NCBI GenBank assembly: GCA_964017235.1
Contig: OZ024938.1
Coordinates: 60,751,816 to 60,815,815 of the forward strand
Direction: 5' to 3'
DNA from: Sabellastarte sp. h YS-2021
Taxonomy: Eukaryota; Annelida; Polychaeta; Sabellida; Sabellidae
Length of the DNA: 64,000 nt
Of this stretch, positions 24,101 to 60,591 are shown one piece after another. The translations under genes were made by a program, and so were the position numbers. Below the pieces are notes generated by a model, which had not been told where the DNA came from, did no database searches, and saw only the letters and a list, made by a program, of their open reading frames with translations. Each line of letters begins with the position of its first letter. The stretch's first letter is position 1.

Positions 24101-27100
24101 TGGTCTATACTTAATATATTATGATACTAATCCATTGCACTGGGCTGATTAAATGTTATCTTGACAAATTATAGAGTGAATGTCCTTCTTTGATCAAACC
24201 TGTTTTTGAACTTTCTGATGGAAACGGATAATGTCTGCCTAAATAAATGTGTACTTTAACAAGTTAGTACTTATTCAAGAGACCAGTTTGCCTTTGATAA
24301 CGTTTGATTTTAGATCTGGCATTTCTTTAAAACTACAAGAATTTTAAAATTGGTATAGACTACCATCCTCAAACAGATTTTTTTTAAGTATTACTATATG
24401 CTGGATCACTAATATCACCTATACATTTCTCTACTCTCTAATGCCTGTGATACAATATTTGGGTTTGTTTCCACTTCATCGGGGTAATAGCAAATTGATT
24501 GTCAATTTTCTTGGTAAATCAGCACAATTAAAACATGAAATCATTATTTTTGAAGATTATGTAAGAAGTTGCATTAAAACAAAATGTACCTGTTTGTTGT
24601 GGTGATGCTATAATTGGCTTAAGTTTGCACTTGTTGTGTTTTTCTGATTTCTACTGATTTAAGGAGCAGGTAGGTTGCACCACCACCATCACCACCGCAC
24701 ATTTTGACTTGTGGGTATGATAACTGCACGAACCCTTTCACAGAATTCATTCAGATTCGGCACACATATGTACTTGTGTCAGGAAAGGAACCCTATTTTA
24801 AGGTGACCTTAGACTCCCAATATTAAAGAACTTATGACCAACTTAAACTTAGAAATGAATGTCTGAGCCACTTTAAGCCTTGTAGCTCTCTATTCAAAAC
24901 GATATAGCTTTCTCAGTGGACTCAGGAAAGGCAGTGGCCCTGACATTATTAGACCTGTCAGCGGTGTTTGACACGATAGATCATTCCCTTTTATATGACT
25001 GCTTGCATGACTGGTTTGGTCTAGATGGTACTGTCTTTTTGTGGATCAAATGGTACCTTTCAAACCGAAAACAAAAAATTAAAATAGGTTTCTCTGAGTC
25101 GGTAATTCTCCCTTTCGGAGTCCCCCAAGGCTCCGTATTGGGTCCTCTCCTTTTTACCTTTTACACTAGTCCCCTCAGTCAAGTTATTTCTAAATTCAAC
25201 GTTACTCATCACCTATATGCTGACGACACCCAGATCTACTTAGCAGTTGACTCCAGGAACTTTGATTCTAGCATGGAAGAACGGACAGAGTGTCTCAAGT
25301 CAGTACAGGAGTGGTTGGTTGGTGTTAAGCTAAAACTGAACCCAGAAAAAACCGAATTTATCATCATAGGTCAAAAAGCCACCAGAGAGTCGCTTGCACC
25401 AAATTTCCCTGTCCCACTCCTCCAAAACAATATATCTCCATTGGTGGAAGTAAAGAATCTGGGTGTTACCTTTGACTCAGACAACTCTTTTGACAATCAT
25501 GTTGCCAAGGTTTGCCGAGCATGTTACTATCATCTTCGTGATTTGCGACAAATTCACGAATTCCTTAGTCACAAAACTGCAATACTTTTGGCAAATGCTA
25601 TGGTCAGTAGTCGTCTGGACTACTGTAACTCTTTACTGTATGGGGTAAGCAAGTCCAACATAGCTAAACTACAGAGAGTCCAGAATGCTCTTTGCCGCAT
25701 AATCTTCAGACTTGACAAAATGAGTCATGTTACACCCTTTCTAAAAAAACTCCACTGGCTTCCAATTCAACATCGTATCCTTTTTAAGTATAATCTCCTG
25801 GTATTCAAGGCTATCAATCTTTCACAGCCCCCATATCTCTCAGCTTTAATAAGATTGAGCAGTCTCACTCGCGGCAACATGCTATCTGTCTCCTCAACCC
25901 ACCCTAAGAAGCACATAGGCAGACGAGGCTTTGCAGTAGCTGCACCAGCTGAATGGAACAAGCTGCCACAAACTGTCAGATCTGATTACTCTCATTTTTT
26001 CTACAGTTTTTTACTCATGCTGTACTAGATATAAGTTTAGTATATGGGGTCATTATCTGTGGAAAATTGAAACTCTTTTGCATTGATTTTAAGGTAACAA
26101 TGAGGTATCAGAAAATACCCACAGTAATACATTTTATGCAATTTTATTCTACTGTAAGCCCTGTAGCTCTCAAAGTATGACACTCATCCAGCTCAAATTT
26201 CATCTGATACCATATTTATATGTTTTAATCATGCGGAAATTCACTGTTTCCAGTTTACATTTAAAGTGTGTCTGTGGTAGTAGACTTAGTGTAGTGTAGT
26301 TTAAGGCCCATCTGGCATAACTCCCAAATATTTGGTATGACATTTAATTTGCAGGAGCAGTTTGCAAACAGAGATCTGTATCTCATCTAAGGCTGGTCTT
26401 TAAGCAGTACGGAAGCTACTGGGGGACTGTGTTTGGGTACTTTAATGTTCCTTGTCATTCCACACTAAAATGGAGGGCTACCATCATTGTTCCCTCCCAG
26501 ACTGCCCCAGGACAAGCACTGCTCCTGTATGATAAGTGTTACTCAAGTATCTGCCATGGACCTGCAAGGACATAGACCAAGTCAGACAATCATTTAACCA
26601 GTATACCAACCAATACAGCTGCAGTCTCAATAAATACAACAACATATAGACCAATCAAATGGCACTCCTGTAAGCCACAACTAATCACATACTGCTGAGC
26701 CAAACCTAGTCTGGCAGGGAAAAGTGGAGATGGCCGAGAGGCAGTGCGACATGCCCAGCTTTGAAGCAACATTTCAAGAGACAGGATATTACGGTCAATG
26801 CTGCCACATTCAGAACTACAGTGACTGCCACACCAGCCACTCGTTTTCTCCTCTGCCACACTGTTTCCAGTGAACTGGATTATGACAATGATGACCCCAA
26901 TTCAGACCTAGGCTCATTAGCAGATGACACTCTACCAGTGCATAACCTGCCAAGAGACACATCCTCTCCCACCTCATCACAAGTAATGAAGAGGAGGGGG
27001 ACTTCACCCATTTGTGGTCATTAGTGGAAGTGGTGGCTAAGAGATCCAGCCCAACAGAAAAACAACACGCCGGGGATTGACAGACTTGCAGTACCAGGAG

Positions 27101-33100: not shown

Positions 33101-35950
33101 GTGTTGTGAGATCTGTAGTGCAAACTCCAGCCAACAGACCAGTACCTGCATGTTAAAAGCAGTTACTTGACATCTACTATCTACCAAAAACTATAACCAG
33201 TGTAAAATATTTTCTTATTTTGGTTTTTACATTAAGTGGTATAATAGTACTATTAGAATTACAATAATCCTGGCCAAACTTCTGTGTCTTGCATTTGACC
33301 CAGACCTGTAGAATTTCAATACCATCAGACTAACTACTCTGACAGGACAAGTCCATTTTCCTGACCCTACCAGTCTGTTGGCAGTAGAAATGATAGTTAG
33401 GAGATGGCAAGATTGTAGCCACGCCATTTCATCATTTTGGCATAACTTGGGGCCAGACTCCCCAACCTATATATTCTTAACACAAATTTCACAAACAGTA
33501 GCCTTTCAGTCCCTCAGTAATACAATTTAGGAAGCATCTTAAGAGCCTCCACTTCAACAGAAGCTCCAATTGTGCAAACATCTACTTCCTCCACAAACTG
33601 ACCACGGCCATAATTTCCACATAGAATCATAAGGCCCATTCATACTATAAGCCGTGTGGCAGGATGTAAGAGTGGCTTTAGGAAGTATACTAAGAGCCAT
33701 CTCTTTAACTCCCAGTTTTCCCACTTGTTATCTTCTCCTTGTTTATATCCACAAGGTTTATTACTGACCAAGAATGTCAATAGATTATCACTTTCTCTTA
33801 CTTCTTTGTTAGTGTTTAGTGCATTAACTTCCCCTACATCAGAAGATATTGCATCTGCAAAGCAGTAGATTACACTATATAAAATGCATTTATAGTTCTA
33901 ATCACTTGTTAGTCTGCATGACAACCATACTGCACCACACACAAACAATAATTTTATAAACAATACTCATTGTCAAACCATTTCCAGATGTCAAAGTAAA
34001 AACTTAGTTTCAAGAACATATTAGGTCATTTGTGTCATTAACAGCAACAACAACTGCTTTAATGTCAATGCAACCTTTAGAAAAGTGTGACTTTTCATCA
34101 ATACTTACAAAAAAACCAAGAAGGACAATACAAATGATTAGATAACAAGATGTATTTCTTAAACCCCCAAAATATTACAAAAATCTATTGCAAAAGCATA
34201 AAATAATTCACAAGCTGTTTATTATCACGATACAGAGTAAAGAATGCACAAGCACCCTAAAAGTCCATATGTTTTTTAAATTATCTCCTACCAGTGGAAG
34301 AAGGCCATGGTTGGGAGATTATAAAACATCTTCTGTATGTGCATCTGTGTGTGCGTGCGTCCGTTCATCACATTTTTACATAAACCTTAATATCTCATTC
34401 ATTAATTTTATAAAGATGTCTTCATGGCTCTATGGGGTCCCGAATGTGAAAACAATTTATAGCATATCATGGCCTCAGACTCTTTTCCAATCGCTGACTT
34501 TGATCTTTGACCCCTTCTTCAATGTCAAGTGGGGTCATCTTACTACTAAGGCCTTATACCTGGACCCTTAGTTCTCCAATGGTACTGATCCTTAGGTTAA
34601 GCTTCTCTTACATCCCATCGTACGTATATATACACGTAAGTGTGCTGCAAATATTGTTAAAAAATATGAACGTAGCCTGGCAGTGGGGTAGCAGAGATTT
34701 CTACGTGCAAACAAGGAATATTTTTCTGACAAGAGTGTCAGTACTTGAACATCAAAGAACAGACTGCGGCTAGCTACAGACCCCACAGTGGGTTAATATG
34801 GATATAAGGTACACACGAGTGTATAATATGGCATGTGCAAACCCTGCAAGTGAATGGGGAGATCTTGCAACACTTGCAAGGGAAATGCACATGCACAAGT
34901 CTCTCGTTAGTTACCCTTGAGAAATGGCTGCATTTATGGCCATTCTGCGTGCACGCAGAGAAAATGTGCATGTCAATTTTCATTGCTGGGTCTGTGCGAC
35001 CTTGAAATTCTGTTATAAAATCGCAGGTGTAGCTTGTGTCCCTTGCAAATCATGCCATTTTTCTCTGTAACCAGGACGTACGTGCACATACGATGGGATA
35101 TAAGAGGGACTTTAGAGATAATCACTGCGGTAGTAGTCTTGTTTTTAACAAAGTGTTCTGCATAAACTATGCTTTATTAAACCATATGTCCATTCTGATG
35201 GTCACCAATATTTATCAAGTTTTACTTTTACAATGCTTAAATAGCTTCATCACATGACATCAAGACAGATGGAGGTAACTAAAATAGGTACCTAAAGTCA
35301 TAATCTTACATGTAAAACTAATCATATAGTGAACAAGATAAATAATCAGCTTACCTGTCCACTGAGATCACCATCAAAGTAAAGACTGAGGAAAATGTCA
35401 TGCCATAGTCAAAGAAGATCCATACCCCACACATAACTTCCCCAAAAGGCCAGTAGCCTAGCATGATATCAAAAGAGTAGAAGGACATTGCAGTGAGTGC
35501 CACCAGAAAATCTGTCATTCCCAGGTTGATGATGTAGTAGGTGAATGTATTCCTTAGTTTTCTATCAACAAAAGGAGATATAATGACCAAGAGGTTCCCT
35601 ACTATAGTCACAACTGTAAAAAGCAGGAGCACTGAGCCAATTATAATATTACCAGTCCTTGGGCCATCTGAACTTTGAACATCAAGAGTCTCTGATGCCG
35701 TAACATCATCCTTTTCTGTCAATGCTGATATGGTTTCAATCAAAGAGGTAATGGACAGCTCCGTGGCAGTGGTCAGTTCATCTTCACCAGTACCAATATA
35801 GCTAGTTTGAATGTCTGTTGTATGGGGATAGAAGCCTATATCACCTGGTGTAGTGACATTTTCAGTTGTCTGCATTACACTGGAATGACCACTGGTCAAT
35901 GAGTCAGTGGTGAAATAAAACCATGACCCAGTGAAAGATGGTTTGGTCAT
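20803..35950 (-). CDS. Class A aminergic-like G-protein-coupled receptor (four coding exons, 474 aa)
   Basis: A seven-helix plasma-membrane receptor. Coding exons 35355-35950, 33065-33145, 22196-22568 and 20803-21177 join with consensus GT-AG sites and compatible phases (596+81+373+375 = 1425 nt). The ATG is chosen because an in-frame TGA lies 15 codons upstream (35996-35998). Seen: a Ser/Thr-rich N-terminus of about 98 residues with one N-glycosylation site (N31), N119 (1.50), D147 (2.50), C174 and C250 for the extracellular disulfide, D181 (3.32, the amine-binding Asp) followed by Y182, DRY 198-200, P272 (5.50), CWVPF 410-414, W438 and Y441 (7.40, 7.43), NPFVY 447-451, and Cys residues in helix 8. 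Loop 3 is about 105 residues. D3.32-Y3.33 and NSTINP recall muscarinic/histamine-H3 relatives, but there is no Ser/Thr at 5.42 or 5.46, and 6.51-6.52 is Phe-His. The ligand is therefore unassigned. Confidence 0.9.
21178..22195 (-). other. GPCR intron 3
   Basis: 1,018 bp with GTAAGT and TATTACAG ends. It holds the two-unit repeat at 21420-21780 and a short perfect tandem duplication of about 29 bp at 22092-22148 (unit GATATGATATAATTTTAGCT plus CCAAATA), just inside the donor side. Confidence 0.85.
21420..21780. repeat. Two-unit tandem repeat, about 156 bp period
   Basis: AAGGTCACACCATGAC starts at 21438 and again at 21594. Both are followed by CACCTACACC, CCAATGT or CCAGTGTCCC, and CAACTTCCTACACC. 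The right end contains the palindrome CAGCCCTTAAGGGCTG. A diverged relative in opposite orientation is at 43551-43860 (GGTGTAGGAGGTTGATACTT and GATATTGGTTAGG). Confidence 0.65.
22196..22568 (-). CDS. GPCR exon 3: TM4, ECL2, TM5 and most of loop 3
   Basis: The acceptor CTATCTTTCAG is followed by the last base of Trp226, then LSVLAVWLAPCIL (TM4, with W233 and P236), the ECL2 Cys250, and TM5 from about 259 to 284 with P272 and Y280 (5.58). The rest is a Ser/Thr/Pro-rich cytoplasmic stretch ending at Gln350. The donor is CAG|GTAAGT in phase 0. Residues 264-271 read VAVVGHHT, giving V266 at 5.42 and G268 at 5.46, where monoamine receptors usually carry Ser/Thr. Confidence 0.92.
24880..26028 (+). 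mobile_element. 5'-truncated LINE, reverse transcriptase and C-terminal part of ORF2
   Basis: One open frame of 370 codons from 24916 (readable a few codons further upstream as IQNDIAFS) covers most of a non-LTR reverse transcriptase. Seen: motif A LLDLSAVFDTIDH, motif B GVPQGSVLGPLLF, catalytic YADD (residues 101-104), then a thumb/C-terminal part with LHWLPIQHRILFK and FAVAAPAEWNKLP. This wording is typical of the Jockey/CR1/L2 group. The endonuclease and early RT are missing, as expected of 5' truncation, and the final family-typical Lys-Thr-Tyr-Leu-Phe tail is replaced by SFLLMLY and a stop. No other break lies within the frame, so the copy is fairly young. It lies antisense to the receptor inside intron 2. 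A GC-richer coding stretch sets it off from the surrounding intron. Confidence 0.93.
26598..27480 (+). repeat. Low-complexity CAG/CAA-rich repeat, two related stretches
   Basis: A unit near CCAACTAATGCAGCTGCAGTCTC opens a run of CAG, CAA and CAACAGCC repeats at 27318-27470. A related segment, CCAACCAATACAGCTGCAGT, is at 26606. One plus frame gives a Gln-rich peptide (MQLQSQQIQQPMQQQSQ), and other frames give Ala/Thr-rich ones. Upstream at about 27095-27190, DDTHFDQFQNESFSLVREGK is open. It could be the remains of a Gag-like or host low-complexity coding region, but I cannot identify it. Confidence 0.5.
28996..29066 (-). repeat. Retroposon 3' tail-like fragment with (TAA)n
   Basis: AATAATAATAATAGTAGGATTTATATAGCGC is followed by AATGCGCTT some 30 bases on. 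Read on the minus strand this is GCGC...GCGCTATATAAAT with a TTA-repeat tail, as in the fragment at 12349-12412. No body is recognised. Confidence 0.5.
30102..30571 (+). mobile_element. Truncated inverted-repeat element, relative of 48828-49440
   Basis: It aligns to the reverse complement of the element at 48.8-49.4 kb over nearly its whole length. Shared landmarks are TTTGATATTTT, CGACTGTAACC, ATTTACACAATC, CTTAGTCCCAGA, GAAATCAGCTATTGC, CAGACC(A/G)GTCTGAGACCCAGT, TTATTCATGTTTTT and CTTTGGTGGAACAGGGGCAT. The right terminal repeat is present; the left one is missing. Internal CAGACCAGTCTGAGAC is self-complementary. Confidence 0.75.
32690..32760 (+). repeat. Fragment of a widespread 'AAGGAGGTAATGTTTT' repeat
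   Basis: CACAAGGAGGTAATGTTTTAGGTTGTGTTTGTCTATTTGTCTGTG resembles the left end of the element at 57851-58105 (CCAAGGAGGTATTATTTTC ... TTTGTCTGTTTG). Only one end is visible, and it is diverged. Confidence 0.35.
33065..33145 (-). CDS. GPCR exon 2: intracellular loop 2 and start of TM4
   Basis: An 81 nt mini-exon between an acceptor ACATGCAG and a donor TG|GTAAGT. It completes Arg199 and encodes YWSVGWSLHYRSHNTMKKC, then the first turns of TM4 ending in a split Trp226 codon. Its short open frame would be missed by length filters. It was found by matching the phase left by exon 1 and the family pattern after DRY. Confidence 0.9.
34315..34565 (+). repeat. Fragment of a GGGAGATTATAAAA-type repeat with one ~147 bp-like unit
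   Basis: GGTTGGGAGATTATAAAACATC followed by a TGTGTGTGCGTGCGTCCG run matches the left end of the element at 40536 (GGAGGGAGATTATAAAATGCATC and GTGTGTGCGTGGGTGCGTG). The following bases, around GATCTTTGACCCCTTCTTCAATG, look like a diverged, inverted unit of the 147 bp array at 4.9-5.7 kb. The resemblance is clearest in translation: IFDPFFNVKWG here against TFGPSFKVKQW there. Confidence 0.5.
34602..35110. mobile_element. MITE of about 510 bp with CTTCTCTTA(C/T)ATCCCATCGTA ends
   Basis: The left end CTTCTCTTACATCCCATCGTACGT is mirrored by ACGTGCACATACGATGGGATATAAGAGGGAC at the right. The interior carries ACTTGCAAGGGAAATGCACATGCAC and similar GCAAG/CTTGC motifs, with no coding capacity. It sits in GPCR intron 1, ending about 245 bp from exon 1. 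The short flanks do not show a clear target duplication. Confidence 0.65.
35355..35950 (-). CDS. GPCR exon 1: N-terminus to TM3
   Basis: It encodes residues 1-198 plus two bases of Arg199. TM1 is about 101-125, TM2 138-160 and TM3 171-196. The donor is CAG|GTAAGC. The intron falls in phase 2 inside the Arg codon of the DRY motif, a junction known from several class A receptor genes. No signal peptide is visible; the ectodomain is acidic and Thr-rich, with the N31 sequon ENVT. Confidence 0.92.
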
Positions 35951-36059
35951 ATTCTGGTCTGTTGTCTGTCTGAATTGGTTTCCTTGGCAGATTTTTCAGG
36001 TATACTTTTTTCCCTCGATTTTAGAAAGTCCCGGTGGCTCAGTGGCTATCTGACGTGAC
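35951..36059 (-). other. Probable 5' UTR of the GPCR, possible upstream intron
   Basis: Upstream of the ATG the frame is closed by TGA at 35996-35998, so this stretch is untranslated if transcribed. On the minus strand TTGTTATTTTAG at about 36060-36071 resembles a splice acceptor, which would start a 5' UTR exon at 36059. The promoter cannot be located from sequence alone. Confidence 0.4.
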
Positions 36060-50093: not shown

Positions 50094-51170
50094 AATAGAT
50101 AGATAGATAGATATTTTATTTTTGTGTCACATGTTATACATTAACAACATACAATTACACAAATTACATTAATACAGACATCCAGCCTATGAAGGCTTAT
50201 GAGACACAGTTAAAAATTTATTTAGTTTTCAGTAGGAGTATATATTTCAAAAATTACAACTGAGGATATATTTTGCAGTTAAATTTACAATAGTTGGGTG
50301 ACTGAGTAGAATTTCTAACTTAGAACTATCATTAAGCGTTAAAAAATGTTTCTCAGTTTTACAAACTTCTAACATAATTTTTTTTCTTTCTGAATAAAAC
50401 CCTGCACAATACAATAAAACATGTAATTCATCATCTATTGAGCCACAATTACATCTTTGACAAAGAGGTTTATCTTTGGGAATATTTCTGTACCTGCCAC
50501 TGTCTACTTTTATTTTGTTGAAGGTGGAACTGCGTAATTTTGCAATAACAGATCTGTAGTTTCTATTTTTACAACTAGAAATATAGCTCTTTTCTTCTAA
50601 AGTAAATGTTGACTCAAATTTGTTATAATGTTCTAACCTTGTCATTATGTCTGCATTTTTAGATAGGTTTACTTTAAATGTTATATCTAAATGTTTTTTA
50701 ATATTTTCAAGTATATAGTTTAATGGTAAGTTGATTTCATTTTCAGTTTCAAAAATTTGTGACATATTTGCCTAACTGAAAAGAGATTGAACACTTCTTT
50801 TCCACTGAGTTTTGTCTAAACTGAATATTTGTTTAGGTAATCTGTTGTCAGGAAGGTTAATAATGTGGTACCAGAACCTAACCATCTCAAGCTTTTGACG
50901 TATGTTGGGTGGGGTCCAGCCAAGTTCAAAATATAAAAATGGGATAGGTGTTTGTTTTCCCACACCCAGAATTGTTCTCATTGCCTTGTGTTGTATAATA
51001 TCACACTTGTTATACAGAGGGCCACCCCATATACCTGCACCGTAGTCCATAATCTTGCAAACTGTGGCTTCATATACCTCCTTATAGACTTTTGGTTGAA
51101 ATCCATTGACAGAATAGTGCTTATGAACCAAACTACCTAGAGAACGACAAATATATGTCAATCAAATCAG
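50094..51170 (-). mobile_element. LINE 3' fragment: RT thumb, C-terminal zinc motif and (TCTA)n tail
   Basis: Minus-strand frame 51161-50247 reads as the C-terminal part of a non-LTR retrotransposon ORF2. Thumb-like sequence MDYGAGIWGG and FELGWTPPNIRQKLEM is followed by a CQRCNCG ... DDELHVLLYC motif, the CCHC-like finger typical of the end of many LINE ORF2 proteins. The frame ends ILSCNF at 50247. A single in-frame TAG at 50772-50774 splits it, and an in-frame TGA at 51162-51164 closes it upstream, where the copy appears 5'-truncated. The 3' UTR ends in a TCTATCTATCTATCTA microsatellite (50096-50112), a usual LINE tail. The exact clade (Nimb, I or RTE-like) is uncertain. Confidence 0.8.
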
Positions 51171-51574
51171 ACAAGTAGTTTTCAAAGGAGAGACACATTT
51201 TTTTTGTATATGGTAAGTTACTATAGTTTTTCTGTGTTGCACAGTTGGGACACTTTTAACTCAGACACATAAAGGCTATTCACTCTTGATAAAATAACTG
51301 TACTACCCATTTTCCAATAATATACAGGTGCTTATGTAATATAAATGACCAAACAACCCTGCTTTTGATGTTATTTCTATGTTATTCCCGAGGTACAAAT
51401 ACTGAGATGTCAGCCAGTGCTGATACCCAACAACATCACTGAAATATTTGTACCCTTATGCAAAGTAATATTCTAGCTATTTTTATGTCATGTCTTTGTT
51501 TAACATAACAAAGTATTATTATAAAACATCAGTGAATTCAGGAAATCATAAAAAATACTTTTACCTTTGATTTA

Positions 51575-51833
51575 TGTGGATGAAATGCGTATGTAATAGC
51601 AGATGAATTCAGTTGAAGGGGAGGTAGGAAATTCGAACACATGGAACGTCACCTTTAGCCCTGGTTTTGGGACGACCTACAAAAAAGACAATATAATATG
51701 CAAATTAACTTCCTGTGGGGTGATACTGAGAAATTCTGGCAGTAGACAATCTCCCGCCAAATTTACTTTAAAGCCTCCAGCAACATGTTTTACAATCAGT
51801 TGTGGGGTTGAAAGCCAGAAATTCATACAATTG
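51575..51833 (+). repeat. Ngaro split direct repeat A1
   Basis: 259 bp from TGTGGATGAAATGCG to CATACAATTG, repeated as A2 at 57057-57315 with a single difference (AGATGAATTC against AGACGAATTC). The left border of the element is set by where the match begins. Confidence 0.95.
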
Positions 51834-51913
51834 TTGAATGTGGAGCTGCCAAGCCGTTGTTATAAAATAAACAGACAAATACGTGGCAGAGTCGAGATTC
51901 AGCCATTTAGGAT

Positions 51914-52911
51914 ATGGCATCAAAGAATAAATCTACGAAGAAACAAGGGGACAAAAAGAATGCGAGTAAAACAACCGATGATATACAACTCGAGGCGAGT
52001 GTGGGAAATGAAGAAAGAAATACGTCCATTGCACAGAAGTTAGATCTCTTGCTGGAGGTTGTGAATGGACTAAACACCAGGATACAAGAACAAGACGAGA
52101 GATTGCAGAAGCAAGAGTGAGTTTGAGGGACGTCTCAGCCTTACCTTCCGCACACAGTTCACCAAAGGCGAAGACAACCCCAGATCGTGTACCGTCATTT
52201 GAAGAACTTAAGAACGATTCGAAGGTGCAAGCCGAAGTAGATAGGAGGTTGCAGGCATACCACAATGCTTCACGAGTAGACTACACGGGTAAGTCAAATA
52301 CTGCTATTAAGTCGGGAAGGTTTAGGGCTGGGGTAGCTCGTATCAAAAACCCAATTAGTTGGCCACAAGACTTCTGCTCTGTCAATACAGGCTCCAAACA
52401 ACCTACGTACGATGAAATGTCTCTAGAACAGTGGGTACAAGGAATAATGCATTGTATTTTAGAACAATCTGAGAATAAAATTAGGGAGAATATGATGATT
52501 TATTTCACCTTTCTTATGCAAGATGCAATTGAATTATCAGCTTCCACGGCGCGTAAAGCTCATGCTGCAGTATTGCAGGAATTAGAGCGGGGCAAGGTCG
52601 ATTGGGAAAATCTAGAAGCGATTGAAAAAATCAAAAATAGGCATACACAAAGAATTGTACAGGTGAACAAAGGTACTAGTGGACCTGGAATTCAAACTCA
52701 ATGTTGTCAGCATTTTAACAAAGGTCAATGTAGATTCGACAATGAGCACATGTCAAACAATACGTTGTACCAACACCATTGCTCGTACTGTTGGAAAGAA
52801 ACACAAAAGAAATACGACCACCCAATGTGTAGATGCTTAAGGATAAAAAATGCGCAAGGGGGGCAAAAGAACGAAGTCGTGAAGCCAAAACAGACAGAGC
52901 AGAAGGTTTAG
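51914..52911 (+). other. Ngaro Gag-like region
   Basis: The first part encodes a Lys/Glu-rich segment with a likely coiled coil (LDLLLEVVNGLNTRIQEQDE). The remainder is a mostly helical, charged protein ending in a Cys/His cluster: CQHFNKGQCRF, then HHCSYCWKE, then HPMCRC. Such a finger cluster at the end of ORF1 is characteristic of DIRS/Ngaro Gag proteins and is presumed to bind the element's RNA. As a virus-like fossil it is described only by its parts. Confidence 0.8.
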
Positions 52912-53080
52912 CATTCTAAAACAACTACCTAGTAAAAATGTCGAGGAACAAAAATGTTACAGAAGTTCCTGTGACTATGAAAACGGTACAAGTGTAAAGA
53001 AAAAATGTATTACAAACAGTAATGATGAAATATGCATATACATTGTTGATAAAAAGCATACTAGTTATTGTGAATGTAAT

Positions 53081-55573
53081 ATGTTTAATATTAAGGGCAA
53101 CAACTGCCTGGAATTTAAAAATGATGCATTCTATGACAGTAACATGAAAAATGGTCATACCAGGAGCATTGAGTGTATAATATGTAGTAACAACACAAAC
53201 ACGAGTGATAGTACACGAGCAGATAATGATGTATCGTTTAGTTTGCTGAATACCTGTACTGAAGGTACTGATATTATATATACTAACAAATGTTCAAATT
53301 GTACTACTGTACAAAGTGCATATTGGTGCCAGGTAAGTGCTAGAAGCAACTTTAACTTGGCATTTCTAGATCTTGCAGCGAATAACTATACTAACAAAAG
53401 TTGGGAAATTAGTACCTTCCATATGGGTGAAAGCATTAAAAAGACAGGAGATACAAACATAAAAAATTTAAGTGAAGATATGTTACATGAAACGAATGAA
53501 TCAAAGATCAAATGGTTGTTAGATTATCAACGTGATGAGCTTCTGGCTAGTAAATCCCACAACTATGCTAGTCAAGAAAAAAGCACTTGGTATTTAGCAA
53601 ACAGCATTGATTTATTGCACAGACATTCTTTTAGTTCAAACAGCATTGATTTATTGCACATACATTCTTTTAGTTCACACAGTTTTAGTTCAACTGTCAC
53701 AACAGATAACATATCACAAGTGATATGCAACTATAGCAGGGGGAGGGAGGTCGAATACAACCAAATGTTGGAAAGTAAAAATGTCACAGGTGTTACGAAT
53801 AAAAACAGTACTCTTGGGGAGAAGAGTGACATGATAGGCAGACAATTTGGCTACATCCCCTTTACCATTAAAAAATACATTAGTTTACCTACTAATAAAG
53901 GCATTCCATTCAAAAATAATAGTCAATGGCTACAAACAATGCATGAAGCTGTATTAAAGTACAAGGTGCCCAATTATCAGGGAGCAAGAATCCCGGTTCC
54001 ATCTGATTTGAATATACGCGCTTGGAGAAGACTGTTAGAGAACTATGATCTTCCTATCATTGCAGAATATTTAGAATTTGGGTTCCCTGTAAATATAGAT
54101 TGGAATATTTTTACAGGTAATAAACAAATTAAAAACCACTCCTCAGCGTTCATGAGAGCTACAGGGGTAGACAAATATTTTGAGACAGAAACAAATGCAG
54201 CAGCAATGATAGGGCCACTGGAGAACGCACCATTTGAAAATATGAATTACTCACCGTTGTTAACTAGAGACAAACCAGATGGGGGAGTTCGGGTGATAGT
54301 CGATTTATCCTGGCCAGAAGGTAATAATGTCAATAGTTGTATCCCTGATGGAGAATTCGATGAAATCGATTTTGTCCTAAAATACCCTAGCATAGATTTA
54401 GTTTTAGAAAAAATTCGACAGTCAAAGTCACAAGCTATATTATATAAGGTGGATCTACAAAGAGCGTATAGAAATTTAAGAATAGATCCACTAGCATATC
54501 CACTGTTTGGTTTGCAATGGAAGAACGCCACTTACGTGGACGTTAGTATAGCGTTCGGTCTGAAAATCGGGGCCGCGGCGTGTCAGATGTGTACCGACGT
54601 TCTAGCGCATGCGCTACGCACACAAGGGGCGTGGGTGATGAACTATTTGGACGATTACGTAGGGGTATCTACAACTGATAAAGCTAATTCAGAATTTTTA
54701 TCTTTAGTAAATCTATTGAAGCAAGTGGGACTGCCAATAAATGAAACCAAAGTCGAGCCCCCAAGTACAAGGATTACTTGTCTAGGTGTATTAATAGACA
54801 CACAGGCAGGGATAATAGCTATCCCTGATGAAAAAATGGTTCAAATAAGAAAATTATGCAAGGAATGGTCAACAAAAGAGTATACTAACAAGAAACAAAT
54901 ACAAAGTCTGATAGGAAAATTAATATATTTACACAGATGTGTCAAGCCAACTAGACTTTTCATAAATCGCATGTTGGCAACACTCAGAAATGCCCCAGTA
55001 AAAGGTCAATTTAAAATACCAGCAGCCTTTTATAAAGATGTACAGTGGTTTAACAAATTCTTAGACCACTTTAATGGGTCAGTAAAAATACATGAAAATC
55101 ACAAGGTGGATCATCAATTTTTTGTAGATGCATCTCTGCAGCAAGTAGGGGCTATCTGGAATAAAGAAGTTTATTCATGTAGTATCCCTAGTAGGTTAAA
55201 AAATTTGGTGTCCATAGTTCAACTAGAGGCAGCTAACTTAACTATGGCCTGCAAGCTATGGGGGAGTAAATGGAAAAATACTAGGGTAATCGTCTGGTGC
55301 GATAACCTTGCAGTAGTCCAAGCATGCCAATCACATAGAATAAGAGATAACTGGCTGATGGCTTGTTGTAGAACGTTGTGGTTTACTGCAGCTATTAATA
55401 ACATTGAAATTTCAGTTAGACATATATATGGTAGTGCAAATGTTAAAGCAGATATGTTATCTCGTTGGGACATATATAAAAATAGTAATGCTATAGAGGC
55501 AAAATTCTTGAAGAATTGTTGCAATTGGAATCATGTTAACAGTGAAATGCTATGGCCTAACTTTCAATTATAA
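53081..55573 (+). other. Ngaro reverse transcriptase-RNase H region
   Basis: An 830-codon open frame. Residues about 300-640 are the reverse transcriptase: GGVRVIVDLSWPEG, the first catalytic Asp in YKVDLQRAYRNLR (about 458), and YLDDYVGVS (524-525). Residues about 675-795 are RNase H with FFVDAS, an EAAN Glu, WCDNLAVVQ and ANVKADMLSR as the likely active-site Asp/Glu set. The wording (INRMLATLRNAP, GLPINETKV) fits Ngaro-like RTs. About 300 residues precede the RT: two CxxC pairs (32/35 and 71/74), then a Ser/Asn-rich part with an internal repeat (NSIDLLHRHSFSS / NSIDLLHIHSFSS). I do not recognise this N-terminal region. Confidence 0.92.
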
Positions 55574-55675
55574 CCGACAGCAGTATTTGACTATTAACTC
55601 TTATTAAGAAGTGTAAATTAAAAATTAAGGATAGATATTGCTCTCCTACATTGTATATTTACAGGAAGTGCTGCA

Positions 55676-56644
55676 TTGGTAGCATTACAACAGCAGGCTT
55701 TTGCGAGGATACAGGCAGCCTTGAGACCTAGGACTGCTTCTGCATATTCCGCGGGGTTCCGTCAATTTCTGGCCTTTACAGTGAAGATGTGCCTTGATCA
55801 ACCTCATGAAGAGGCAGTACTGCTGTTGTACTTGGAATATCTGGCGCAGCAAGGACTCAAAAGTAACTCTACAAGAAATCAAGTGTCGATTTTGAAACAT
55901 TACTTTGCATTACTGAAGTGGCCCACACAAGTGTTTAACTCTAGAAACATTCAAATGTTAATAAAGTCTGTGCAAAGGAACTCTGTCATAGCTGTAAAGT
56001 TAAAGGGAGTAATTGATTTGAAAATGTTGAAGAAATTGATTAGAAAAACTCGAACTTATACCAATGGTGAAATATTTGCAGCAGTTTTCACAGTAGCGTT
56101 CTTTGGTTTCTTCAGACTGTCTACTCTGTTACCAAACAAAAGTACTGAATTTGATGGAACTAGGTTTCCTGTGCAAAATGATCTGGTGTTTGGCCCTCCA
56201 GGAGTACATATGATAGTAACGTGCAGTAAAACCATGCAAAATTCAAATGAAATGCAAGTGGTTCAGTTGCCAAAGCTCATAGCCCAGGAATTTTGTCCAG
56301 TAATGGCCTTGAAAAAATTATTAAAAATAGTACCACAAGGAAAAAATCTCCCAGTTTTCCAGATTATTACAAAACGAGGTTGGATGGTGCTAACAGCCCC
56401 TAGGGTAAGGTCATTTCTGAAACTTGTAATAACGTCCATGGGTTTGAACCCAAGTACATACACAGCTCATGCGTTTAGACGCAGTGGGGCTTCACTTGCA
56501 TTTGATAATAATATTGAGTTGAGTAAAATAAAGCAACATGGATCCTGGAAGTCAGAAGCCATATGGACCTACCTACGCTCTACCCCTAAAGCAGCTAGTG
56601 CTGTTCCCCGTACCTTTCAACAACTAATGCTCAATACACTATAA
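55676..56644 (+). other. Ngaro tyrosine recombinase
   Basis: About 320 residues. It has an N-terminal SAM-like DNA-binding part (SAYSAGFRQFLAFT ... STRNQVSILKHYFALL) and a C-terminal catalytic domain. The expected set is visible: Arg at about 147 (FFRLSTL), His-x-x-Arg at 265/268 (AHAFRRSGAS), His at 288 (KQHGSW) and the Tyr nucleophile at about 299 (AIWTYL). In YR retroelements this enzyme is thought to join a circular DNA intermediate to the genome, replacing integrase. It starts about 100 bp after the RT-RNase H frame and ends 15 bp before B1. Confidence 0.92.
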
Positions 56645-56659
56645 ACATGTTGGGAGTTT

Positions 56660-57058
56660 GGCTAGTTATGTCATTTATTTTTAAAGATAAAAGAGTATGA
56701 CATAGTTGGTTATTCAAGTAAAAAGACATTGTGGTATGAATTTTATTTTATTTTATAACAGTTTTAAATACGCTTTTTCACAAGCTAGAAAACTATGGTG
56801 TATATAGATTAACATAGTAGTAATGGTTGTCAATGGTTGTGAAACTAGCCTGATATCTTATTATTAGAAATTTAATAAAACAGATTGCTAGTAAATACTT
56901 GAGATAACTGGAGTAGTTTAACATATATGTGTTAACCAGACTAAAATTTGTTAACTAATATGCTAATATGTAAAAAGAAGTTTAATAAACTCCAAACTAT
57001 ATATAGTTATATATTATGCATTAGTTTCTTTCATCTGTGTACTCTCATCCTGCAACTG
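56660..57058 (+). repeat. Ngaro split direct repeat B1
   Basis: 399 bp from GGCTAGTTATGTCATTT to CATCCTGCAACTG, identical by eye to B2 at 57375-57773. It abuts A2 directly, sharing two bases. It contains AATAAA-type signals near 56875 and 56982 that could serve as polyadenylation sites. Confidence 0.95.
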
Positions 57059-57315
57059 TGGATGAAATGCGTATGTAATAGCAGACGAATTCAGTTGAAG
57101 GGGAGGTAGGAAATTCGAACACATGGAACGTCACCTTTAGCCCTGGTTTTGGGACGACCTACAAAAAAGACAATATAATATGCAAATTAACTTCCTGTGG
57201 GGTGATACTGAGAAATTCTGGCAGTAGACAATCTCCCGCCAAATTTACTTTAAAGCCTCCAGCAACATGTTTTACAATCAGTTGTGGGGTTGAAAGCCAG
57301 AAATTCATACAATTG
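57057..57315 (+). repeat. Ngaro split direct repeat A2
   Basis: Second copy of A1, placed between the two B repeats. This is the diagnostic B1-A2-B2 order for Ngaro-like elements and presumably lets a complete circular copy be rebuilt from a transcript that starts in A1 and ends in B1. Confidence 0.95.
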
Positions 57316-57374
57316 CCCACCCTCCCTCCCCTGTTAAAAGTAACAGTAAGGGTAGATAGAAAGTAATTTACAAC

Positions 57375-57773
57375 GGCTAGTTATGTCATTTATTTTTAAA
57401 GATAAAAGAGTATGACATAGTTGGTTATTCAAGTAAAAAGACATTGTGGTATGAATTTTATTTTATTTTATAACAGTTTTAAATACGCTTTTTCACAAGC
57501 TAGAAAACTATGGTGTATATAGATTAACATAGTAGTAATGGTTGTCAATGGTTGTGAAACTAGCCTGATATCTTATTATTAGAAATTTAATAAAACAGAT
57601 TGCTAGTAAATACTTGAGATAACTGGAGTAGTTTAACATATATGTGTTAACCAGACTAAAATTTGTTAACTAATATGCTAATATGTAAAAAGAAGTTTAA
57701 TAAACTCCAAACTATATATAGTTATATATTATGCATTAGTTTCTTTCATCTGTGTACTCTCATCCTGCAACTG
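57375..57773 (+). repeat. Ngaro split direct repeat B2
   Basis: Identical to B1. Its last shared bases CTG at 57771-57773 mark the right border, followed by unrelated ACAATGGCATG. The 59 bp between A2 and B2 contain a C-rich CCCACCCTCCCTCCCC stretch not found at A1. Confidence 0.95.
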
Positions 57774-57850
57774 ACAATGGCATGTCTTTTACCAGTGTAC
57801 TAGTCAAAAATAGAAAGCTATTATAAAACAACCCCATGAGTGCATGTTTA

Positions 57851-58105
57851 TTACCTCCGCCAAGGAGGTATTATTTTCATGACCATTTGTCTGTTTGTTT
57901 TCTATTTGTTGAGGAGGATTACACAGACATTACTCTTCGGATCTTCCTGGGGAAAAATCAGAAGATGTGTCTTTGTCCAACTTAGATTACATTAAATTTT
58001 GGAAGTGAGACAGATCACCATCTGGATACAAAAAAAAATAATAATCCGAATTTTTCCAATTACTTATTATTATATGTCTTGGTGGAGGTATGCACTCTCC
58101 GAGGT
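57851..58105. mobile_element. 'ACCTCCGCCAAGGAGGT' repeat, a widespread invertebrate element
   Basis: The left end TTACCTCCGCCAAGGAGGT is itself a palindrome followed by TATTATTTTC and a TTTGTCTGTTTG run. The right end has TTGGTGGAGGTATGCACTCTCCGAG. This opening and closing pair, around GGATTAC...CAGAC and ...TTAAATTTTGG, is a repeat I know from many aquatic invertebrates and fish. It is presumed a non-autonomous Tc1/mariner-type element. No coding frame. Confidence 0.6.
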
Positions 58106-60591
58106 CTGTTGTTTTTCACAAGTTCACAAAGAGGCATTTTATACAGGATACTTTTCAGTGAATGATTTTACACGAATCTTCACATATCATAAGGGTAAGC
58201 ATGTAATCTATTTATTTGTTTGTTTTATATTTACACTGTATGGTTTTAAAAATGTCCAGGGTTCACAACACTGGTGTGCAAGTTATGAAAGATTCCCTGT
58301 TTCTGAATAGAATTTATAACCTCAGTGTTTCTAGCCTACATTTCATTAAATTTTTGTGGTCATTTAGAAATGGTCTTTGAGGAGGCAAAACATGGACCAA
58401 TCCATCACATCAGTGGTTTCATATCAATAAATCTATTTTTCTTCCTTCTATTGACAGAAATAATGATGGATCCCCAAAAAATGTTTCCTGTGAAAATATT
58501 TTTCTCACTAAAAACTGCCAGCCTGCCAGCTATGTTGTAATTTTGTTCAAAAGGTTCTTTTACCACTGAATTAGATTTAGAGAAATGAGAATTTTTTTCA
58601 TATTTTCACATCTCTTTTAGCAATTTATAATATTTTAAAATAACAATCTTACATGGTACATATGGTACATAGTATTGCTCAAATATATAACGTCACAGTA
58701 AATATAATAAGATTGGTCAGAGCAACAAACCAAAGAACCAAACTTTAGGAGAGAGTACTTGGAGAGTATAGTCCATCCATCAGAGAAAAGACACCTAAAA
58801 AAAACTCCGATCTAATGATCAATTGGTTTCTGTTTCAAACATTTCTGTTTATATTCCATTTCTGTTATAGCAGCTTCGCCAATTAAAATTGCCTTTGCTT
58901 TCCCACAAAACCAATAAAAGTCAATGTCAGAGTTAGTTTTACATCCTGTTCAAAATTAACAGTCAAAGTTGTATTGGGACAGGCCCACAGTATTGTCACT
59001 TGCAAGAGCTGAACAGGGCAAGAGGTGACTTGCTAACCACTAAGAAACTGAGGAGATCCCCAGCTTATATAAAAATGCAAGATGCTGGTTTGTCGCAACA
59101 CCTTGTGAATAGAATAACTTTCATCATGTGGTCAGGTCAAAGGTCAGTGTCTAGTTGACAATATCAGGTGAAGACATATCTCTTTAGAAAAGCCTCCGCC
59201 CTGTTTCCTAGTCAGTCAACCCCCACCCATGCTCAGATTCCATTTTGATTGTTTCTCATCAAGGCAGCATTTTTAAAATGGTCATACAATTGCTATAAGA
59301 TATCAAGAATAGTGAAAACAGGCCATGCAGAGGCTATATACTCTACCTTCAGTATTAATGTCTCTGATGTTCAGTTTAACATAAATTTCAAAATAAGCAT
59401 TAATAAAAGCACTGTTTGCATGTATTATTTCAATGCAGGGAAACCTTTCAAAAAGAAAGAAAAAAAAGAATTCCAGCTTCTCTAACATAATGACATGTAC
59501 TACTGCAAGTGAATATTCTTCTAAGATGCACACTTCACCTGCAAGATGACAAAGGGTACATAGTTAATGGGTGAGAAGTCCCAGGGTGTAAATTATGTAT
59601 AATCCATTTGGAGGTGATATCATTTCTTAAGATGTATGAGGCTATTTCCCCTTTTCAACAGAGCAGTATTATCCTTGGTCAACACTTCTTCAACATTTAT
59701 ATTATGACTTAATTTGAAACTGCAGTCCTGTATTCTCAAATAGGCAATATAAATGGCAATAGCATGTAGGAGTGTTTTAATCAAAAACAGTTATTTCAAC
59801 ATGTGTCTTAATTTGGCTGAGATAATATACTCAGCAGATAGGCTTCAGAATAGGAAAATAGGTTATTTTGACTTGAATATCTAGCCCGCAAAGCCTTAAA
59901 CCTCGCACATCACAGCCAAGAAGGGAAAATATAGGTGGTCCCAAAGGGATGATCAGCTTATCCTAGATGTTTCACTGGGGGCTTACAGGATCACACAAAA
60001 AGCAAACCAAACCAGCTAAAACCGTAGAAAGCCCAGCCTCACGCTGAGATTCCCTAGAAGTTACTCCAACTTAAAAAGAGTGCCTAGATCTTGCTCTGCA
60101 AGCTTTGCTTTTTAAGCTGCAGTAGTGGTAAAATATTGTAATTACTAGAGTAAAAGGAATGGATTGTGTTAATTTGAGCACATTTTTAATTATTCATTTC
60201 ATAAATACGGGTGTTCACTTAAGAACTCACAAAAAGTAAAATTATAAAGATAATGTCAAAAAATAATTATAATCAGAAGAAAAATTACTAAAAGTGGATG
60301 AAAATTACAAAAACAAAAATAATCTTCTCCCAAGTAATGTATAATAATTCTTATGTTTCATATAAATGTTAAATATTGTATTTTGTCTTGCTCATTTTGT
60401 TATTTCTTAGTCTTTATTTTGTTCTCAAACTATGCTTTAACAGTTAGCATTCTTTTGTAGAACATATATATGATGGTATTTTATTTATACAATATATTCA
60501 TATTATTTTATTTAATAACTCATATTTATTCAGTTTCTGTCACAAACATCACATTGACTGGATGACAAAACAAGAGCAGCACAAGTGTTTT
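58106..60591. other. No gene recognised; one possible LINE tail
   Basis: AT-rich with no exon, RNA gene or element ends I can support. The short LINE-like C-terminal stretch at 59165-59247 is listed separately. Open frames of up to 103 codons (57999-58310) partly overlap the repeat to the left and carry no motif. Confidence 0.45.
59165..59247 (+). mobile_element. Possible LINE ORF2 C-terminal remnant
   Basis: A plus frame reads QVKTYLFRKASALF and then a stop. 'K-T-Y/H-L-F-R-K-A-F' is the usual last block of L2/CR1/Jockey-type ORF2 proteins, and it is the block missing from the LINE at 24.9-26.0 kb. The rest of the element is not readable, so confidence is low. Confidence 0.35.

Follow-up and report, generated by a model that had tools for sequence, protein, structure and literature searches.

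To our knowledge, the manner in which tyrosine-recombinase retrotransposons rebuild their ends and integrate by means of split direct repeats is still largely a paper model. Ngaro-like elements (order DIRS) are characterized, in the portions of the literature that describe them, by repeats in the order A1-ORFs-B1-A2-B2 and by a methyltransferase-free coding region that runs from Gag through RT-RNase H to a tyrosine recombinase (YR) (PMC9210276, PMC4157794, PMC8547959). A comparable organization is found within a 64,000-nucleotide stretch of the genome of the annelid Sabellastarte sp. (hereafter the window), and on structural grounds the element residing there is classed as a Ngaro-type tyrosine-recombinase retrotransposon. 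The element itself is an ordinary Ngaro; what is mechanistically informative is the integration pattern. Ngaro relatives often lack the A-x-B module exactly (x being the spacer between A and B), and a left-right asymmetry at the chromosome joints hints at the mode of copying. The genome offers at least five families of Ngaro, copies by the dozen, readable empty sites and reciprocal incomplete forms, and the predictions of the model thereby become countable, namely crossover polarity, permuted copies and unit number.

The repeats were first found by an unguided scan and then compared base by base. The scan returned two direct repeats, one of 259 nt (51575/57057) and one of 300 nt by gap-free extension (56660/57375), which exceed chance expectation by far. 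All features lie on the forward strand in the order A1...B1-A2-x-B2, with ends resolved to the single base, and the split-repeat order given in the initial annotation is thereby upheld. Repeat A1 (257 nt, 51577-51833) begins TGGATG and differs from A2 (257 nt, 57059-57315) solely at position 51604, while B1 (399 nt, 56660-57058), which ends CAACTG, is identical throughout to B2 (399 nt, 57375-57773). This agrees with the one difference and the identity noted earlier and, together with close relatives of up to 98-99% identity, supports the proposal of a recent insertion. The earlier description overlooked the single-copy spacer x of 59 nt between A2 and B2 (57316-57374), which starts CCCACCCTCCCTCCCC and thus carries G-runs on the opposite strand. 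Based on the empty sites of L013, L023 and L024, the TG immediately left of the element (51575-51576) is taken to belong to the target, and the terminal TG of B2 is assigned to the element by the end readings. An origin of the repeats in assembly duplication is rejected, since the same anatomy recurs in six other close copies at other loci.

A B|A joint able to connect both ends of the element recurs internally at B1|A2. The inverted arms TCATCC and GGATGA, read by eye, flank TGCAACTGT at this junction (57045-57065), and TGCAACTGT with its arms is likely the candidate core site of the recombinase. The exchange point is placed after CAACTG; the junction reads CAAC/TGTGG in all seven complete copies of the element's own family (F1) and AACTG/T in families F2 and T3-T5. 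Noncoding repeat B is the slowest-evolving long part of the element among the family copies compared. A conserved RNA structure in B is unsupported (4 of 90 predicted pairs doubly changed among five sequences; covariation term -0.32), and 51400-57900 contains no Rfam match at E up to 1. A coding frame in repeat A (ATG 51601) was considered and dropped, as the frame is lost in several other copies.

Three coding regions separate A1 from B1. ORF1 (51914-52911) is termed Gag-like by position and, given its Cys/His-rich end, by eye only; its remainder had no Pfam match (52012-52908). It opens with the ATG at 51914, is broken after 68 codons and has its remainder in the frame that spans 52012-52911, whereas 9 of 13 ORF-bearing family copies possess an uninterrupted ORF1 of 335 codons. 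Thus, the Gag-like region proposed initially is present but interrupted in this copy, and "largely whole" is a fair description of the element apart from that break. ORF2 (52883-55573; 896 codons) is open and encodes the RT-RNase H (Pfam RVT_1, E 2.3e-10; RNase H motifs read by eye), and 48 bases separate its end from ORF3 (55622-56644; 340 codons), the likewise open YR frame. The YR matches phage-integrase N-terminal domains at E 4e-4 and 8e-4, both below the Pfam cut-offs, and its residues 244-324 match a PHROG integrase (E 2.4e-5); the catalytic R, HxxR and Y were identified by eye. Both enzymes named in the initial annotation are therefore borne out by open frames and profile matches. A single-sequence structure model of the YR was of no use (mean pLDDT 35.6), sequence searches of the PDB gave weak matches to other proteins only, and no relatives were found in viral contigs. 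Open ORFs in other copies, together with very short terminal branches, make it plausible that the family is still moving in this species, as had been suggested.

The family name given earlier is supported by split direct repeats whose internal members lie downstream of the YR, by the order of Gag-like, RT-RNase H and YR regions on one strand, and by a search for the DIRS-type methyltransferase. The Dam profile, which is described as detecting this domain in the part of PMC3783388 that treats it, gave no match in ORF2 (PF05869, E up to 1); it also gave none genome-wide among 82 candidates scored, so that its sensitivity in this host is unproven and the same search supplied no DIRS outgroups. 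The presence of RT sets the element apart from the YR-only Cryptons, and DUF3504 is absent among the Pfam matches to the YR (E up to 1), as is stated for DIRS and Ngaro recombinases in the relevant section of PMC3212892. PAT elements share the split direct repeats; however, they are placed in the methyltransferase-bearing DIRS group in the pertinent part of PMC4157794, and that domain was not found here with the Dam profile of unproven sensitivity. DIRS1 differs in having a methyltransferase and inverted terminal repeats with an internal complementary region, whereas the element here has direct repeats; no inverted pair within 50900-58500 exceeds 43 nt (72%), and the pair of that length does not join the element ends.

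The integration pattern is probably best explained, at a probability of roughly 60%, by recombinase-mediated integration through one joint of an essentially single-stranded cDNA, with alternative joining of the repeats giving rise to short forms. A search of the genome for further copies and empty sites, a step proposed in the initial annotation, located copies in at least five Ngaro families (F1, F2, T3, T4 and T5) and three readable empty sites. Across the five families, four integrated forms with common ends are distinguished by how many A-x-B modules they contain and by whether the ORF block is present: the complete form A1-ORFs-B1-A2-x-B2 (at least 20 copies), a form with two A-x-B units (at least 2), an ORF-only form A1-ORFs-B1, the commonest class counted (at least 32; 6 in F1 and 26 in F2/T3-T5), and a solo A-x-B form (at least 11). 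These counts are lower bounds from the best 40 candidates per search, and the many listed clusters that had no A1 are not among them. For incomplete copies outside F1, the presence of the ORF block was inferred from the A1-B1 distance, often with an adjacent YR match. The F1 counts omit L027-L029 and L036 (rearranged or fragments) and the divergent L030-L035. For F2 and T3-T5, 85 of the clusters listed had a best identity of at least 90% (F2 19, T5 19, T4 23, T3 24), and 46 of these were counted (F2 16, T5 13, T4 11, T3 6). The 39 left out comprise a single B without a listed A1 (F2 1, T5 3, T4 10, T3 12), B-A-x-B without a listed A1 (T4 2, T3 1) and fragments or rearranged or ambiguous clusters (F2 2, T5 3, T3 5). 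In one omitted T5 cluster, C14:84608562, A continues into part of x, and this may be a solo form with an insert.

The same incomplete forms could be made after integration by homologous recombination, in the manner of solo LTRs, an explanation that is a serious contender though somewhat short of even odds. Recombination of A1 with A2 would leave a solo A-x-B, that of B1 with B2 would leave A1-ORFs-B1, and unequal exchange between B1 and B2 would generate two units; these products are exactly those observed, two-unit arrays included. The predominance of ORF-only copies is expected from the short B-B distance (715 to 1219 bp), and F2 conforms to this prediction with at least 1 solo against at least 9 ORF-only copies among the matches listed. 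In F1, however, solo and ORF-only copies are equal among the matches listed (at least 6 of each) despite the 5.5 kb between A1 and A2. In F1 trees, the incomplete forms are interleaved with complete ones, so that the short forms arose repeatedly and a single amplifying subfamily of them is rejected for this family. Terminal branches are alike (medians 0.0053 for complete copies, n=7, and 0.0054 for ORF-only copies, n=6), with ORF-only copies holding the two shortest; in these small numbers, the ORF-only copies thus show no greater age than the complete ones, which does not favor recombination after integration. That explanation also leaves unaddressed the polarity of the joints and the absence of permuted copies.

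Permuted copies (A-x-B-A-ORFs-B) bear on a further model, in which integration proceeds from a double-stranded circle bearing two B|A joints; the recombinase could also split this circle, and the ORF circle and A-x-B circle so formed would integrate each on its own. Such a circle would yield both incomplete forms in one step, and DIRS1 is usually modelled with a circular intermediate, according to part of PMC3266345. Because the two joints are identical across the whole of B and A, the model predicts permutation in about half of the complete copies, but among the matches listed none of 22 is permuted. Likewise, if the crossover region spanned several bases, these would be expected to segregate either way, and the end readings show otherwise. 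The circle model is weakened by both counts and seems quite improbable, although it would be saved by some means of marking one of the joints.

At all three empty sites, TGG...CAACTG has been inserted between two target bases with nothing lost. The joined flanks of L013 match at 100% in 40 of 40 cases among the matches listed, and the target dinucleotide of L024 is TG in 7 of 7 paralogues compared. L023 is the sole empty site informative on polarity: the empty target reads GAAG-TT-AAGC in 7 of 7 paralogues compared and the filled site GAAG-TT-[TGG...CAAC-TG]-AAGC, so that the target supplies the dinucleotide on the left and the element the TG at its right end. Among 53 copies with both ends readable, a set that takes in every counted F2 copy (16) and 20 of the 26 A1-bearing T3-T5 copies counted but omits L025 (a left B-end remnant) and L026 (a disturbed left end), the right end is TG in 52, the exception being the L102/L103 copy with AA. 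The left dinucleotide varies: 24 of the 53 copies have TG there, an excess over the window's TG frequency of 0.069 (P 1.5e-14), and among the 29 copies with another left dinucleotide, the right end is still TG in 28. A blunt or near-blunt exchange after CAACTG, at targets matched by TG, would by itself also produce this fixed polarity with nothing single-stranded, and the clean insertion at the three empty sites fits it. Tyrosine recombinases are nevertheless described, in the parts of the sources that deal with cleavage, as making staggered cuts (5-7 nt for Tn1549, PMC5871717; 6-8 bp apart in general, PMC3212892), and the inverted arms of the joint, read by eye, enclose 9 bases in F1 and 7 in T3; a blunt exchange is accordingly rather unlikely.

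Under one-joint integration, transcription would start within A1 and stop within B2 (B contains AATAAA), and the RNA would for that reason lack the outer end on either side. Restoring and joining these ends might then fall to the internal B1|A2 stretch, acting as a template or splint, after which the recombinase would carry out the exchange between the lone B2|A1 joint and the chromosome, favoring sites that follow a TG. The integrating cDNA is envisaged as essentially single-stranded, or duplex at the B2|A1 joint only, because the polarity of exchange is fixed and no use of B1|A2 is observed; the absence of permuted copies and the strict end polarity similarly point to integration of essentially one strand. 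Linear single-stranded cDNA intermediates are reported for DIRS elements, according to the title of Malicki 2020 as cited in PMC9210276. Wrong joining during replication could produce the short forms, A1 with B1 giving the ORF-only form and A2 with B2 the solo A-x-B. In a more specific and doubtful version, the cDNA would be single-stranded save for one joint, where a B|A splint derived from the internal B1-A2 holds both ends and the recombinase exchanges the continuous strand only. The crossover bases would therefore follow the right end, B1|A2 would go unused as an integration joint, and cases in which the splint pairs A1 with B1, or A2 with B2, would lead to many ORF-only and solo A-x-B insertions. 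If so, the element would carry in its second A-B copy a splint of its own, and more than half of the counted ORF-bearing insertions would have discarded it.

Among known systems, DIRS1-like elements share with this one an RT-RNase H and YR, the absence of a target-site duplication, and a short joint common to element and target, which is 3 bp in DIRS1 in the part of PMC3266345 concerned. In contrast to Ngaro-like elements as described, the element here has a 59-nt A2-B2 spacer with a C-rich start, and more than half of the counted ORF-bearing copies are without A2-x-B2. Xenopus Ngaro copies carry a hydrolase ORF, whereas the ORF list contains no long ORF downstream of the YR here. The nearest parallel for the solo form is the Ngaro of Cafeteria, in which isolated A-B units are scattered through the genome, as reported in the portion of Hackl 2021 (PMC8547959) devoted to them. 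Here, unlike in Cafeteria, the solo units are accompanied by the reciprocal ORF-only form and by two-unit arrays, with base-resolved ends and three empty sites.

The Ngaro-type element at 51577-57773 of the window (C19:60751816-60815815, in a searched genome of 1.79 Gb and 647 contigs), whose bounds assume an exchange point after CAACTG, has the order A1-ORF1-ORF2-ORF3-B1-A2-x-B2, where A and B are split direct repeats. These repeats, recognised in the initial annotation, are real: base-by-base comparison finds a single difference between A1 and A2, at position 51604, and none between B1 and B2 over 399 nt. ORF2 (RT-RNase H) is open over 896 codons and ORF3, which encodes the tyrosine recombinase (YR), over 340 codons. 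The earlier reading of a recent, largely whole Ngaro was correct, apart from the broken ORF1; it is an ordinary, recent Ngaro. Among the 13 ORF-bearing copies of its close family, F1, ORF1 is open over 335 codons in nine, the YR over 340 codons in 11 and ORF2 over at least 880 codons in six. In 12 of the 13 F1 copies read, the spacer x (59 nt at 57316-57374, between A2 and B2) opens with CCCACCCTCCCTCCCC, the match being shifted by one base in L009, where it starts later; the opposite strand shows four G-runs. A C-rich start of x is found in F1, in a second family, F2, and at locus L030.

More information resides in the surrounding Ngaro population than in the window copy alone. Two DNA searches of the genome returned at least 41 and at least 43 matches, and 19 close copies including the window element were classified from fetched DNA as F1: seven complete (window, L009-L014), six ORF-only, with the order A1-ORFs-B1 (L015-L020), and six solo, with the order A-x-B (L021-L026, the left end of L026 being disturbed). 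A YR search, in which the best 119 of 21306 loose candidates were scored, revealed additional families whose amino-acid identity is 51-63%. Of them, four (F2, T3, T4 and T5) were subjected to unit searches and then classified by script at an identity of at least 90%, the ORF block being inferred from the A1-B1 distance and, for many copies, from an adjoining YR match. This distance is mostly 4.4-5.4 kb; one complete copy has 6.1 kb, and three ORF-only copies reach 8-11 kb, the latter probably owing to inserts. For F1, F2, T5, T4 and T3, respectively, there are at least 20 complete one-unit copies with a matched A1 (7+5+2+4+2, with inserts in B2 of one F2 copy and B1 of one T4 copy), at least 32 ORF-only copies with a matched A1 (6+9+10+4+3, one T3 copy having a truncated B) and at least 11 solo copies (6+1+0+3+1, some with inserts or truncation). 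At least two complete copies contain two units, one from F2 on C19, whose two units match each other at 99.9% across 994 nt, and one from T5 on C7. All of these counts are lower bounds, with the best 40 candidates scored per search and 39 of the 85 clusters from the F2 and T3-T5 classification left out.

In F1 trees of A1-ORFs-B1 and of A-x-B (13 rows each), incomplete copies are interleaved with complete ones, a pattern that indicates repeated origin of the incomplete forms; the solo copy L021, 99.7% identical to the window copy, is its sister. Terminal branches of ORF-only copies (0.0009, 0.0013, 0.0034, 0.0073, 0.0077 and 0.17) resemble those of complete copies (0.0022-0.013), and so, in this small sample from F1 only, incomplete copies show no sign of greater age.

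Several copies depart from these forms. At 1001-2616 of L027, a B-A-x-B(partial) on the reverse strand stands head-to-head with a forward A(partial)-x-B, 18 bases away, an arrangement that resembles a fold-back copy. Two solo-type copies (L025 1720-1746 and C14:22116639-22116994) still carry, left of A, the final 25-27 bases of B; L025 also has about 20 bases of its right flank repeated on the left side. At C1:113366995-113368019 and C3:12643271-12644934, B is followed by a second B without its first bases, with no A-x between. Elsewhere in the window, a long forward-strand ORF with an RT domain (24886-26028; Pfam RVT_1, E 2.9e-21) looks by eye like a non-LTR element, and a reverse-strand ORF containing the start of a rhodopsin-like receptor (35354-35995; Pfam 7tm_1, E 2.4e-20) is probably one host-gene exon.

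The check for empty sites, proposed at the outset, established clean insertion at L013, L023 and L024, with no target bases lost. Empty paralogues of the solo L023 read GAAG-TT-AAGC (7 of 7 fetched among at least 41 rows), and the filled site reads GAAG-TT-[element ending in TG]-AAGC; thus, the left dinucleotide belongs to the target and the right-end TG to the element. L024 (7 of 7 fetched copies have TG at the joint, from at least 38 rows besides L024) and L013 (TG in all 40 of the matches listed, each 100% identical) fit this assignment but are uninformative because the target itself has TG. The repeat hosting L023, which may resemble 5S rRNA, has no Rfam match at the gathering score. The L013 target, with at least 40 copies showing full identity across 200 bases, is probably a recently active repeat family.

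Both ends can be read in 53 copies from the five families (L025 and L026 excluded). The right end is TG in 52. Left TG occurs in 24 (P 1.5e-14 against 0.069, the TG frequency in the window), and among the remaining 29 copies, 28 have TG at the right. The sole other right end belongs to L103, paired with L102, which has TT at the left and AA at the right. The joint AACTG/T is shared by all five families; the right end of one T4 copy (L119) reads AGCTG.

Double-stranded YR exchange in which the crossover spans several bases creates mismatched joints, which can segregate either way. A heteroduplex of 5-7 nt is described for Tn1549 (PMC5871717). In the Ngaro copies, one end polarity alone is seen among the 53, save L102/L103. 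A blunt exchange would account for this polarity. A circle formed from a complete element would contain two B/A joints that share the full length of both repeats without a difference; use of the inner joint for integration would yield A-x-B-A-ORFs-B. This permuted order, whose absence blunt exchange leaves unexplained, is seen in none of the listed copies of complete or two-unit form (0 of 22), an outcome with a chance of 2 to the power -22 were both joints equal. Both the fixed polarity and the missing order would be explained if the integrating molecule had only one usable duplex joint on a cDNA that is otherwise single-stranded, and we infer that such a molecule may be the substrate. Linear single-stranded cDNA is attributed to DIRS elements by a title cited in PMC9210276.

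Repeat B is itself unusually conserved. Relative to L014 and L019, the two most divergent F1 copies, the window element differs at 14% and 29-35% of fourfold sites (RT-RNase H and YR), 8% and 12% of A1, and 1.5% and 5.3% of B1, respectively. Noncoding B has therefore changed about 6-10 times more slowly than the fourfold sites, a ratio larger still when taken against dS. The noncoding 5′ UTR and ORF2-ORF3 gap (7.5% and 10.7% in L014; 24% and 27% in L019) lie somewhat under the fourfold sites and far over B, which points to a constraint particular to B and, to a smaller degree, A. The window copy and F2, with YRs at about 60% identity, share conserved blocks in A (AATGCGTATGTA and TCAGTTG, among others) and in B (including TCACAAGCTA, TTAATAAACTCCAAA, which contains AATAAA, and TCCTGCAAC). 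Repeat B may combine an RNA 3′-end signal with a recombinase arm; a covariation check gave no support for RNA structure in B.

Ngaro elements are defined in PMC9210276, PMC4157794, PMC8547959, PMC6681497 and PMC3783388, and solo AB repeats are already known in Cafeteria (PMC8547959). Copies without 3′ or 5′ repeats are mentioned for Xenopus, fungi and a VIPER consensus, and may include the ORF-only form. The literature passages and listings covered contain no statement of this reciprocal form as a class, of two-unit arrays, of a fixed polarity or of permuted copies being absent. Among the rows covered of the DIRS1 table in PMC3266345, the trinucleotides at the start and the end are not always the same, one of the two then agreeing with the joint, and this mismatch may represent the same effect as the right-end TG polarity described here.
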